Assembly (NCBI GenBank): GCA_025201365.1
Contig: JAIXMF010000016.1
Span: forward strand, 310,001-374,000
DNA length: 64,000 bases
Origin: Syncephalis plumigaleata
Taxonomy: Eukaryota > Zoopagomycota > Zoopagomycetes > Zoopagales > Piptocephalidaceae
Direction: 5' to 3'
The notes beneath the pieces were generated by a model. That model was given only the letters and a program-made list of their open reading frames with translations, made no database searches and was not told where the DNA came from. Made by a program: the position numbers and the translations under genes. Position 1 is the stretch's first letter. The number at the start of each line of letters is the position of its first letter. This document shows, one piece after another, positions 5,624 to 9,814 of the stretch.

Positions 5624-5797
5624 TTAGTTGATATTTATGTAATAGGACCATGGATGAATAGACGCAAGAGACTTGTAGATATATTTCTTGATCCAAGGAA
5701 TAATGACTTGAGTAGCATGGACACTAAAGGGTCTTGCACCAATACATTCTTGACTTGAATACCTATAATATCTACTTGATGATGTCCTTGTCTTGCT
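5624..5797 (-). other. Terminal exon 49 of the micro-exon gene: 3' UTR or alternative C-terminus
   Basis: Preceded by a normal 52-base intron (5798-5849; GTAAGT ... ATTACAG). The main reading frame stops in exon 48, making this 3' UTR. However, the frame continuous with the three-base exons (phase 0) stays open here for 57 codons to TAA at 5624-5626, so skipping of the 12-base stop-containing exon 48 would add 57 residues. That stretch contains CIGARPFSVHATQVIIPWI, which faintly recalls the last strand and helix of trypsin-like proteases; I do not regard that as proof. A second frame is open for about 49 codons, so openness alone is weak evidence. Confidence 0.45.
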
Positions 5798-5852
5798 CTG
5801 TAATCATAATGAATTAATATGAGTATAATTATTGTGGATTATTACTTACTGT

Positions 5853-8800
5853 TTATTCTTCCTATCATTCAGATGATGTAGATCGTATTGTGGTTAGTAC
5901 ACCATGGGTTAATGCCAGAATGGTAACTTACCCACTAGTATACACAGACATATGTGAATTATATGACATATTAATATCAATACAGTCATATGCTGTCATC
6001 GGGAGTAGTAACTTACGCACTGTTATCCACAATGTATGGAAATCATGTGCCACGTTATCATTAGTACATCCATTCATTATAGCAAGAATGATTACTCACG
6101 TTCTATCATAAAGGAACATATGTTGGCCATGTGCCGATACTGTGATTAGTACGCCATACATTACGATTGGAATGGTAACTTACATACTATCGTACAGGAA
6201 CATATGGATCAAGTGTCATAATGTGGTTAGTACCTCATAGTTTACGATCAAAATGGTAACTTACGCTCTATCATTAGGAAATCGTGTGCCATACCATAAT
6301 TAGCGCATTCATTGATTGCAGTCAGAATGGTAGCCTACCTCCTATCATTCAAGAACATACGTGGATCATGTGTCATATTGGAATTAGTACATTCATTCGT
6401 CACAATCAGTTGGTAACTTACAATCTATCATATAAGAGGGCATACGTGGATCATATGTCATATCATAATTAGCACCTCATTCATTATGTCAGAATGATTA
6501 CTTACATACTATCATACAAGAACGTATGCAAATCGTATGCCATATTAGAATTAGTACATCTATTCATTACGATAGGAATGGTAACCTACCTCCTATCATA
6601 TAAAAATGCAAGTGAATCATACACCATAGTGTGATTAGTACCTCATTCATTACACTCAGGATGATGACCTACTTTCTATCATACAGGAGCATGCAGGATC
6701 GTGTGTCACATTAGAATTAGTGATCATACATTACAATCAGGATGATAACTTACGCCCTATCATACAAGAAATCATGTGTCACGTTATCATTAATACGTCC
6801 ATGCGTTGCAGTCAGAGTGATTACTTACGCCCTATCATACAAAAATGTAGGTGAGTTATTTGCCATATAGTAATTAGTACCCCCTTCATTACGGTCAGAA
6901 TGATTACTTACCCACTAGCATACACAAGCGTGTGTTAATCGTGTGCCACATTATTGTCAGTACCTCACTCATTGCAGTCAGAATGTTAACATACCCACTA
7001 TCATAAGGAAATTATATGCCGTAACGTAGTTAGTATTCCATTCATTAAGCTAAAATAATAACTTACAAGCTATCATACACGAAGATATGTGGATCATGTG
7101 CCATAACGTAATTAGTACATCGATTCATTACAGTCAGAATATTAACCTACAAACTATTATACACAATCATATATGGATCATGTGCCATAGTGTGATTAGT
7201 ACCTCATACATTGCAGTTAGAATGATTACTTACTTTCTATCGTACACAGTCATATGTTAATCGTGTGCAATATTAGAATTAGTACATCCATTCATTACAG
7301 CTAGAATGGTAACTTACGGCCTATCGTACAGGAAATCATGCGAATTATAGGACATATTAGAATTTGTATTTCATTCATCACGGTAAAAATAATGGCTTAC
7401 CGTCTATCATGCAAAAACATACGTGGATCGTGTGCCACATTGTAATTAGTACCTCCTTAATGACGATCAAAATGACAACTTACTCTCTATCATACACAAA
7501 CATACGCGGATAATAAGCCACATTGGTATTAGTACATCAGGTATTACAGTCAGCCTGTTAACTTACAACCTGTCATACACAAGTATACGTGGATCGTGTG
7601 TCATATTGTGATTAGTACCTCGTTCATCACAATTAGAATGATAACTTACGCGCTATCATAGAAAAAACCATGTGCCACGCTACAATTAGTACATTCATTC
7701 ATTACGGTCAGAATGATGACTTACTCTCTAGAATACACAAGTATGCATGGGTTGTATGCCATATCGTAGTTAGTACTCATTCATTACGATCAAACTTATA
7801 ACTTACTTGCTGTCGTACAGACGCATATATGGATAATGAATCACATTAGTATTAGTCCCTCATTCATTACGGTCATAATGATTACTTACTTGCTATCATA
7901 CGAGAACGTATGTGAATTATGTGCGATATCATTGTTAGTACATCCATTCATTGCAATCATAATGATAACCTACACACTGTTATGGGCAGATATACGTGGA
8001 TCGTATGCCACATCATCATTAGTATACCATAGTTTATAAATGGAATGGCAACTTACACACTGTCATACCGGGACATACGTATGGATCATGCGCAATACTA
8101 TAATTAGCACATTCATCCATCGGATTAGAATGATGACTTACTTTCTATCGTATACAAGAACGGATGTGGATCATGTGTCAAATTGTGGTTAGTACCTCAT
8201 TCATTGCTGTCATAATGGTAACTTACTTTCTATTATACACAAGCACAGATGAAACGTGTGCCATACAATAATTAGAACGTCATTCATTACGATCAGAACG
8301 ATAACTTACGAGCTATCATACACAGACATAGGTAAATCATGTGTCATATTGTGGTTAGTATCGCATAAGTTACAGCCAGGATGATAACTTACCTCCTATC
8401 ATTCAAGAACATAGATGAAGCATGTGCCATATCGTAGTTATTATCTCGTTCATTACAAGCAGGTGATAACTTACGTCCTATCATACAAGAATGTGTGGAT
8501 CATACGTCATGCTGTAGTTAGCACATTATTCATTACAGTCAGAATGATAACTTACATCCTATTGTCCAAAAACATGTCAATCATGTGTCATACTAAGATT
8601 AGTATACTATAGATTGTAACCGAAATGATAACTTGCCCACTAGCATACACAGACATATGTTAATCGTATGCCATAAGGTGATCAGTACAGCGTAGATGGC
8701 AATCGAGATGCTGACTTACTTTCTATAATTCAGGAATATACGTAAATCGTGTGTCACATTAGAATTAGTACCTCGTTTATTGCCACCAGAATGATAACCT

Positions 8801-9814
8801 ACATGCTATCATACACGGAAATCGTGTGTCACGCTATGATTAGTACGTCCATTCATTGCAGTCAGAATGATTACTTACAGTCTATCGTACACAAACATAA
8901 ATGGATTCATGTGCCGTATTAGAATTAGTACATCATTCATTGCAGTCAATGTGCTTACTTACAAACTAGCGCACACAAACACATGTTAATCGTGTGTCAC
9001 ATTATTATTATTAGTATATCATTCATTACGGTCAGAATAATGACTTACAGACTATAATTTAGGAGTATTCGTAGATCGTGTGCCATATTAGAATTAGTAC
9101 GCCATTAATTACGATAGGAATGGCAACTTACGGCCTATCATGCAGGAACGTATGTGGATCATGTCCCAAATCGTAGTCAGTATCTCATACGTTGCAGTCA
9201 GAATGATAACTTACTTTCTATTATACAGGAACAGAGGTAGATCATGTGTCATATTAAAATTAGTACGTCATTTATTGCCATCAGAATGATAACTTACACA
9301 CTGTAATAGACAAGTGTACATGGATTGTGTGACAAACTGTAATTAGTATCCAGTTTACTACGATCATAATGATAACTTACATTCTCTTGAAATAGTAGTC
9401 ACACATATTATTTTGATTTATATTACTATTAGCATGATCCTTGTTATGGTCAATAAGATAGCTTATTACCTTCAGCTAACAAATCAATAGATAGAATAAA
9501 CATTATGATATGATTAGCATAGTACTTGTTATGGTCAATAGAATAGCTTACTGCTTTGAGCTAACAAATTTATAGGAAGAATAAACATTATGATGTGATT
9601 AGCACGTCAAAACAACCATTTAATATACATGAAATTACCATCTATCGGTAATCATTGGTGGCCAATGAAACAATAGGCTACGATTAGTACATCAATTGGT
9701 AGGGTCACGGTCAGACATACCACGACGATCCAGGATGGGACTAGCTTCAACGGCAACCAGACTGGCGACAGCGACAACGGCGGCGGCAATAGCGAGAACG
9801 GCAGAGAACTTCAT
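5853..9814 (-). CDS. Secreted four-cysteine peptide encoded by 48 coding exons, 42 of them exactly 3 bases long
   Basis: Exon 1 (9721-9814, ends in phase 1) encodes a signal peptide (MKFSAVLAIAAAVVAVASLV, likely cut after Ala24) and a dibasic Arg30-Arg31 site. Exons 2-5: 9639-9641 (3), 9552-9560 (9), 9470-9475 (6), 9381-9385 (5; restores phase 0). Then 42 three-base exons, lowest plus-strand base in transcription order: 9298, 9215, 9132, 9049, 8963, 8879, 8803, 8720, 8637, 8556, 8475, 8393, 8310, 8227, 8142, 8057, 7974, 7890, 7807, 7725, 7650, 7567, 7484, 7401, 7318, 7234, 7151, 7067, 6995, 6912, 6829, 6754, 6673, 6590, 6506, 6422, 6339, 6265, 6184, 6100, 6017, 5932. Exon 48 (5850-5861) gives Glu-Glu-stop. 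The 83-residue product has Cys40, Cys55, Cys56 and Cys80, Trp48, 68, 69 and 81, and motifs KKCCQQRR and FLWWGGKEY. No family recognised. Splicing is predicted from motifs only. Confidence 0.72.
5862..9380 (-). repeat. Tandem array of about 43 homologous introns, period about 83 bases
   Basis: Read on the minus strand, units begin GTAAGT (variants GTAGGT, GTAGGC, GTAAGC, GTGAGT, GTATGT and one GCAAGT at 8636), run through TATCATTCTGACTGTAATGA and a TACTAAT-like branch site in the middle, then a segment like ATATGGCACATGATCC, and end GTATGATAG or GTATGACAG. Intron length ranges from 69 to 83, most often about 80. Between each AG and the next GT/GC are exactly three variable bases. After the branch site almost every unit lacks AG until the terminal one. 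The array is not protein-coding in the plus direction: the open frames there at 7836-8039 and 8415-8612 are repeat shadows. Confidence 0.9.
9386..9638 (-). repeat. Second intron subfamily: introns 2, 3 and 4 of the micro-exon gene
   Basis: Introns 9561-9638, 9476-9551 and 9386-9469 (78, 76 and 84 bases) share blocks not found in the main array. Introns 3 and 4 share TATTGACCATAACAAG; introns 2 and 3 share CATAATGTTTATTCT and the end TTTGTTAG; all have a GCTAAT-type branch site. They precede exons of 9, 6 and 5 bases. So the gene holds at least two intron families of the same size class, each amplified locally. Confidence 0.75.

Follow-up and report, generated by a model that had tools for sequence, protein, structure and literature searches.

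The nearest known kind of gene to the one reported here is the micro-exon gene (MEG) of schistosomes, for which parts of PMC10526429 give exons of 6–81 bp, mostly 15 bp (3–81 in the abstract), introns of 0.1–5 kb, and secreted, variable products. The present analysis concerns a locus on the minus strand of a 64,000-nucleotide stretch of the genome of the fungus Syncephalis plumigaleata, of the Zoopagomycota (contig JAIXMF010000016.1, positions 310,001–374,000; here C68:310001-374000, in a 32.6-Mb genome of 383 contigs), which is referred to below as the window. In its region 5853..9814, 42 consecutive codons appear each to occupy an exon of their own. Like the MEGs, this locus belongs to a parasite and contains runs of tiny exons, with a variable product whose secretion is predicted from the sequence pattern. 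It differs from them in the length of its array exons (3 nt in 1122 of 1157 exon islands of 40 related loci), in its introns (about 60–90 nt in the family; 69–84 nt plus a last one of 52 nt in the focal gene), and in the kingdom in which it occurs.

The exons of aphid bicycle genes are small, yet longer than the 3-nt array exons of Syncephalis. As described in parts of PMC9168663, bicycle genes likewise comprise fast-evolving putative effectors recognised by their gene structure. Single 3-bp micro-exons (Drosophila homothorax, human RPS24) demonstrate that an exon of 3 nt can be spliced in (PMC7392893, PMC11162997 and PMC12686416, in part); they number one or a few per normal gene, as opposed to 42 in a row here and probably thousands genome-wide. 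The single-nucleotide exon of Fusarium CYP621A is another ultra-small fungal exon, whose deduction was aided by an intronless relative; unlike the present exons, it is one exon in one gene and completes a codon rather than holding one (PMC12940212, in part). In recursive splicing a donor also lies at or beside the junction after each step (PMC8605326, in part), but acceptor and donor are juxtaposed at such ratchet points, whereas here each step would leave one codon behind.

Judged by these parts of the papers, exon and codon coincide along the protein in none of the nearest known kinds. The comparison upholds the view of the preliminary description of this DNA that MEGs are the closest architecture and have longer exons (mostly 15 bp versus 3 nt). 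That description also knew of no gene with such a run of one-codon exons, and no report of one was found among the matches listed in the open-licence literature (bioRxiv outside). Because each codon of the mature protein has an exon to itself, the Syncephalis architecture is rated as lying beyond MEGs, though a stricter judgement could make it an extreme variant.

The focal locus is most probably (about 0.9) a protein-coding gene with one-codon exons, handled by the ordinary spliceosome and encoding a predicted secreted disulfide peptide; its splicing in vivo is what we infer from the features described below. Six lines of evidence point to such a gene, as first proposed: (i) paralogs, (ii) the absence of stop codons, (iii) conserved cysteines, (iv) the changes between close pairs, (v) intronless copies and (vi) the homology of a second, unrelated locus to a continuously encoded protein. 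The original proposal is supported as to the architecture and understated its extent, which is genome-wide rather than confined to one gene.

Predicted exon–intron map of the focal gene

All 42 units of the array consist of [T/C]AG, exactly three bases and a donor (one of them GC), as originally claimed, and the introns behind the 42 triplets measure 69–83 nt, the range given before. A frame-aware splice model reproduced the stop-free chain from the signal exon through leader exons of 3, 9, 6 and 5 nt to a stop in a 12-nt exon (exon sizes, counted from the ATG: 94, 3, 9, 6, 5, 42 × 3 and 12 nt; introns up to the terminal exon: 69–84 nt). The predicted peptide, MKFSAVLAIAAAVVAVASLVAVEASPILDRRDAQSTEENCKASFTHKWDDELKKCCQQRRVRTAKFLWWGGKEYIESYNCWEE, has 83 residues with Cys at positions 40, 55, 56 and 80, identical to the one first deduced. 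Where coordinates were compared (exon 1, triplets, stop, start of the 3′ exon) they agree to the base. The features, all on the minus strand, are as follows.

9721..9814, minus: exon 1, ATG, putative signal peptide MKFSAVLAIAAAVVAVASLVAVEAS and PILDRR (dibasic site); frame-aware model and family signal-exon pattern
9639..9641, minus: leader exon 2, ATG, 3 nt; frame-aware model
9552..9560, minus: leader exon 3, CTCAAAGCA, 9 nt; frame-aware model
9470..9475, minus: leader exon 4, CTGAAG, 6 nt; frame-aware model
9381..9385, minus: leader exon 5, AGAAT, 5 nt, sets the array to phase 0; frame-aware model
5932..9300, minus: array of 42 one-codon exons, CKASFTHKWDDELKKCCQQRRVRTAKFLWWGGKEYIESYNCW; unit-by-unit check and frame-aware model
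Array exons 1–21, minus, top base of each: 9300, 9217, 9134, 9051, 8965, 8881, 8805, 8722, 8639, 8558, 8477, 8395, 8312, 8229, 8144, 8059, 7976, 7892, 7809, 7727, 7652
Array exons 22–42, minus, top base of each: 7569, 7486, 7403, 7320, 7236, 7153, 7069, 6997, 6914, 6831, 6756, 6675, 6592, 6508, 6424, 6341, 6267, 6186, 6102, 6019, 5934
5850..5861, minus: terminal coding exon GAAGAATAAACA, stop TAA at 5855-5853; frame-aware model
5798..5849, minus: last intron, 52 nt; read from the printed sequence
5624..5797, minus: 3′ non-coding exon, AGCAAGACAAGGACATCATC...; start checked, far end adopted from the preliminary description

Several of these features recur in paralogs. The last leader exon is 5 nt long in many of them as well (frame-blind models), and their terminal exons have 9–14 nt with TAAGCA or TAAGCG. 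Locus L030 has a 52-nt intron at the equivalent place, which a GenBank gene model removes, and joined homologs of the 3′ exon occur both in a GenBank model and among intronless copies.

The introns conform to the GT-AG consensus, with donor and acceptor profiles derived from 725 introns and with a branch site. A CTRAY branch site is present in 41 focal-gene introns, lying 36–42 nt before the acceptor in 29 of the 41. Tandem Repeats Finder (TRF) reads the focal region as diverged tandem arrays with a period of about 83 nt. Rfam and tRNA scans of the window gave no matches. Along 92% of its length, an importin reading frame near the focal gene is 90% identical to that of Syncephalis pseudoplumigaleata.

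The gene family and its predicted three-nucleotide exons

The focal locus belongs to a large family in which the signal exon is nearly invariant and the mature peptide hypervariable. The start of the family signal exon matches 178 places in the genome (30-nt pattern, at most 3 mismatches; 0 in the reversed control), and a DNA search gave at least 75 matches within this genome (40 of 187 candidates scored). Forty array loci were fetched (L001–L040, overlapping and allelic copies included; L041 was kept apart). They were parsed with splice profiles trained first on the 42 units of the window and then on the 725 introns, with a uniform exon-length prior of 0–40 nt.

With this uniform prior, 874 of 900 internal exons in the 28 loci L001–L028 were 3 nt long. 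The remainder comprised exons of 9 nt (13), 40 nt (6), 12 nt (3), 22 nt (2) and 2 nt (2); by reading of the printed sequence, the 40- and 22-nt exons are misparsed 3-nt exons and the 2-nt ones look real. In L001–L040, where islands of up to 20 nt were allowed and redundant copies included (the 1122 of 1157 cited above), the islands of other sizes had 9 nt (21), 12 nt (5), 2 nt (4), 5 nt (2) and 0, 11 or 14 nt (1 each), and were chiefly stop-bearing terminal exons and leader exons. Introns in the parses of relatives span 59–89 nt, apart from 44–45 nt in parses judged wrong.

The same length stands out genome-wide. The pattern ATAG-NNN-GTAAGT occurs 1842 times versus 222 in the control, whereas with four intervening bases there is no excess (147 versus 233). 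Since the pooled counts for lengths 1–15 are 4423 versus 3968 in the control (by subtraction, 2581 versus 3746 without length 3), the excess sits at length 3. The exact pattern fits 460 of 829 sampled units, and by extrapolation the genome may therefore hold roughly 2,900 one-codon exons.

In the frame-blind models of L009 and L010, five successive 9-nt exons precede the array and encode a Pro/Arg-rich stretch. The pairs L009/L010, L011/L012, L016/L017 and L005/L007, whose introns differ by 0.8–2.6%, lie on separate contigs, some of them small, and look as if two haplotypes had been assembled apart; L011/L012 and L016/L017 have intron differences and zero triplet differences.

All named protein-search matches of the family bear the name Syncephalis, among them S. 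plumigaleata proteins with the family signal peptide; MEG proteins were covered by these general searches only, none being compared directly. Eight further entries (P0054–P0057 and P0059–P0062), which come from jgi or ena and are probably metagenomic, also fit the family profile, and several carry a related signal peptide, which suggests relatives in other species. Searches of Pfam and PDB gave no convincing relative, and a protein search with one mature region gave no match.

Codon-like behaviour of the array triplets

No stop codon is present among 829 non-redundant array triplets (seven partner loci and identical units left out), compared with 28.4 expected from the position-wise base composition, although homology among paralogs makes these triplets less independent than their number implies. 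A control count at shifted intron offsets (0 to 346 stops in 829; one offset with 0) was set aside as uninformative, since the introns are related repeats.

An adjacent pair of Cys codons, usually inside a C...CC...C pattern, was detected in 19 of 28 arrays (those with at least ten one-codon exons among L001–L041; ten redundant or different loci and the short arrays were dropped). The nine arrays without it include L022, a shortened relative with two Cys; the others encode Gly-rich, Ala-Lys, His-containing or other peptides. Paralogs share the C...CC...C pattern with switches between TGT and TGC. Of 38 frame-blind models (redundant copies included), 27 have an array that shares the phase of the ATG, and in these 27 the stop is in phase (15), out of phase (5) or not seen (7).

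Comparison of ten close pairs revealed differences at 29 of 308 codons. Single-base changes are rarer than expected at the intron rate (13 versus 35.1), whereas changes of two or three bases are more frequent (16 versus 2.4); the divergence of one pair was substituted owing to poor alignment, and its raw value gives expectations of 39.6 and 4.1. Synonymous changes make up seven of these 13 single-base changes, compared with an expected fraction of 0.22 (P 0.012). The few small and many whole-codon changes fit purifying selection combined with a putative en-bloc replacement of codons. Around codons with multi-base changes the flanks carry 94 differences, whereas the unchanged codons of the same six pairs lead one to expect 49.5.

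Codon choice in the arrays of L001–L040 was compared with a rough reference composed of reading frames of the window. Tyr is encoded solely by TAT, Gln solely by CAA and Phe mostly by TTT; CAG is absent (0 of 22 Gln codons), as are TAC (0 of 24 Tyr) and GTA (0 of 29 Val), and triplets of the form NCA or NCG account for 7 of 658. Avoidance of competing splice sites explains the missing codons only in part, as it does not account for the avoidance of TAC.

The strongest evidence obtained for a coding architecture comes from L041 (C1:1410800-1418500, minus strand), a locus reached through the genome pattern search, in which the family signal exon was looked for and not found. Its frame-blind chain consists mostly of one-codon exons, with some of 1, 6, 7, 8 and 21 nt, and spells ...EEHWIHDYIYRIEL... 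and then ...LEKANQHLDLFGTIAFEKKQKD. The GenBank protein P0044 (BDF22DRAFT_742100) contains EQPWIQDYIVRV followed by LQAANQHLDLFGAAAFEKRQKD, which matches that order; its residues 1–103 form a single uninterrupted frame (C318:1455923-1456231). Ten successive 3-nt exons of L041 give LDLFGTIAFE, which aligns with LDLFGAAAFE of P0044 with a score of 40, reached by 0 of 5000 order shuffles; a 25-codon run of L041 scores 39 against P0044 (3 of 5000 shuffles), and in their other reading frames both runs score between 13 and 19.

BLASTP of two longer L041 segments against P0044 returned E values of 3e-4 and 1e-11, each from a single comparison; the latter segment surrounds LDLFGTIAFE and includes 21-nt and 6-nt exons. 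A tblastn search of L041 with P0044 found no continuous match at E 10. Since the L041 triplets, read in order and phase, match a continuous protein, the architecture is taken to be coding in L041, which suggests that it extends beyond the secreted family.

Continuous copies, alternative explanations and mechanism

Some family members lack the introns. The leader sequence that is split as CGTCGTG/CTG/TTG/TCGAAC/GCC/GTG, followed by CTA or CTC, in L027, L028 and L039 is continuous in L047 (CGTCGTGCTGTTGTCGAACGCCGTGCTCC). The joined form of these leader micro-exons, ending in CTC, was found in 13 places (at most 3 mismatches to a 30-nt pattern, none exact; control 0), and a terminal exon joined straight to the 3′ exon in 28 (at most 2 mismatches; control 0). 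These places may represent processed copies or ancestral continuous forms; in both cases the intron edges are exact. L043, L045, L046, L047 and others are continuous family members with a signal exon and a 3′ exon, some apparently broken; several of the continuous copies fetched lack an intact signal start.

Sixteen GenBank proteins were tried for mapping, of which 11 remained unmapped, mostly because the locus lay outside the fetched set. P0035 (BDF22DRAFT_685769) is fully spelled by L011, with 40 one-codon exons at the predicted boundaries, and 71 of the 92 residues of P0036 (BDF22DRAFT_685685) are spelled by L042, with 35 one-codon array exons, likewise at the predicted boundaries. For P0047 (BDF22DRAFT_657452, on the contig of the window), reading from the ATG accounts for only 33 of 128 residues; farther on, 51 residues are spelled by eight one-codon exons of L030 together with its terminal and 3′ exons, in a frame other than that of the predicted codons. 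P0042 and P0051 are continuous. These models lend weak support, because their leaders and skips could stem from an ab initio program.

Several observations weigh against one-codon coding exons. (i) The frame-blind model reads the first small leader exon of the focal gene as 13 nt rather than 3, which puts the array out of phase; the in-frame leader therefore depends on the frame-aware model, which itself imposes an open frame. (ii) The leaders of 11 of the 38 frame-blind models, the focal gene among them, are out of phase, and in five loci the stop exon is out of phase although the array is in phase; both are ascribed mainly to misparses, which is demonstrated only where the frame-aware model fits. 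(iii) The arrays of L018, L020 and L023 each contain one 2-nt island and the signal exon of L034 looks frameshifted, so some family copies may be broken. (iv) Five units are skipped in the GenBank model P0035 and several in P0036, and the leaders of these models differ from the predicted ones. (v) The excess of flanking differences is not seen in every pair (L032/L033 have none). (vi) No continuous copy of any whole one-codon array was found: matches between the arrays L001–L040 and L042–L066 reach at most 14 nt, and whole-genome searches with the spliced products of two genes, run with no positive control, gave no continuous match. (vii) The likeness between L041 and P0044 was spotted by eye before it was tested.

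As to origin, it is conceivable, if doubtful, that introns were inserted in the manner of introners at the codon boundaries of formerly continuous genes, as opposed to a tandem duplication of units made up of intron and codon. L041 does spell codon by codon what P0044 holds in one piece, and continuous family members exist; phase-0 insertion at each codon is, however, hard to achieve by independent events, and some units within an array are nearly identical (top intron pairs 0.95–1.0), as after unit duplication. Duplication of neighbouring units as the main source of residues is unsupported, identical adjacent non-Cys codons showing no excess (33 versus 29.8 by permutation; 46 versus 30.5 for all codons).

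Frequent skipping of single codons, by which each gene would yield many in-frame peptides, is unlikely to be the rule. Any subset of 3-nt array exons keeps the frame, the P0035 and P0036 models skip single units and stay in frame, and isoforms are described for schistosome micro-exon proteins (parts of PMC10399815). The shared C...CC...C pattern and the codon constraint, on the other hand, argue that full inclusion matters, and the skips may be artefacts of annotation.

It is very improbable that the array consists of intron-like units repeated in tandem within a long intron, exon 1 being joined directly to either the terminal or the 3′ exon with no translation of the triplets: the TRF result and the equal similarity of array introns at all distances (0.68–0.69), as in a homogenised repeat, would suit it, but the stop-free triplets with their shared Cys codons, the scarcity of single-base changes relative to introns with its synonymous excess, and the homology of the L041 product to a continuous protein do not. 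Chance or a repeat artefact is likewise rejected, given how exon lengths are distributed, the pattern counts across the genome and the L041 homology.

For a gene with one-codon exons, the pre-mRNA would be cut by the ordinary spliceosome through intron definition, which suffices because every intron bears its own signals (its donor is of the GTAAGT type, its branch site of the CTRAY type and its acceptor of the TATGATAG type). Introns 3 nt apart can hardly be occupied together, so their removal is probably sequential, the simplest order being one that starts at the 5′ end; each step would add one codon, with the next donor then three bases past the junction (a one-codon ratchet). To judge from the conserved signal exon, the RR site and the cysteines, the product is a processed secreted peptide, which would enter the secretory pathway, be cleaved after RR and form a small disulfide peptide (C...CC...C). 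Since the array exons are symmetric and in phase 0, the loss, gain, skipping or exchange of units affects entire residues and leaves the frame intact. Codons are probably swapped en bloc by gene conversion between units, for which the conserved splice sites on either side of each codon would act as guides.

A run of one codon per exon goes far past what splicing was thought to face in one gene. If the proposed reading is true, the spliceosome can join dozens of 3-nt exons in phase, and these genes would offer a natural test case for intron definition and for the order of splicing. There would also be a class of proteins that searches with continuous sequence can miss, as for the two genes whose spliced products found no match, and gene finders may garble such genes. 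Only tentatively can the codon be proposed as a general exon unit, with one-codon exons numbering in the thousands and spread over two or more unrelated protein families, exchangeable slots, conserved splice sites serving as homology arms and skipping as a second, somatic layer of diversity.

Syncephalis is named among mycoparasites in parts of PMC10386755. Variable secreted effectors with exchangeable codon slots would fit this lifestyle and might act toward the host fungus or competitors; the secreted peptides of the family could then vary residue by residue without frameshifts.

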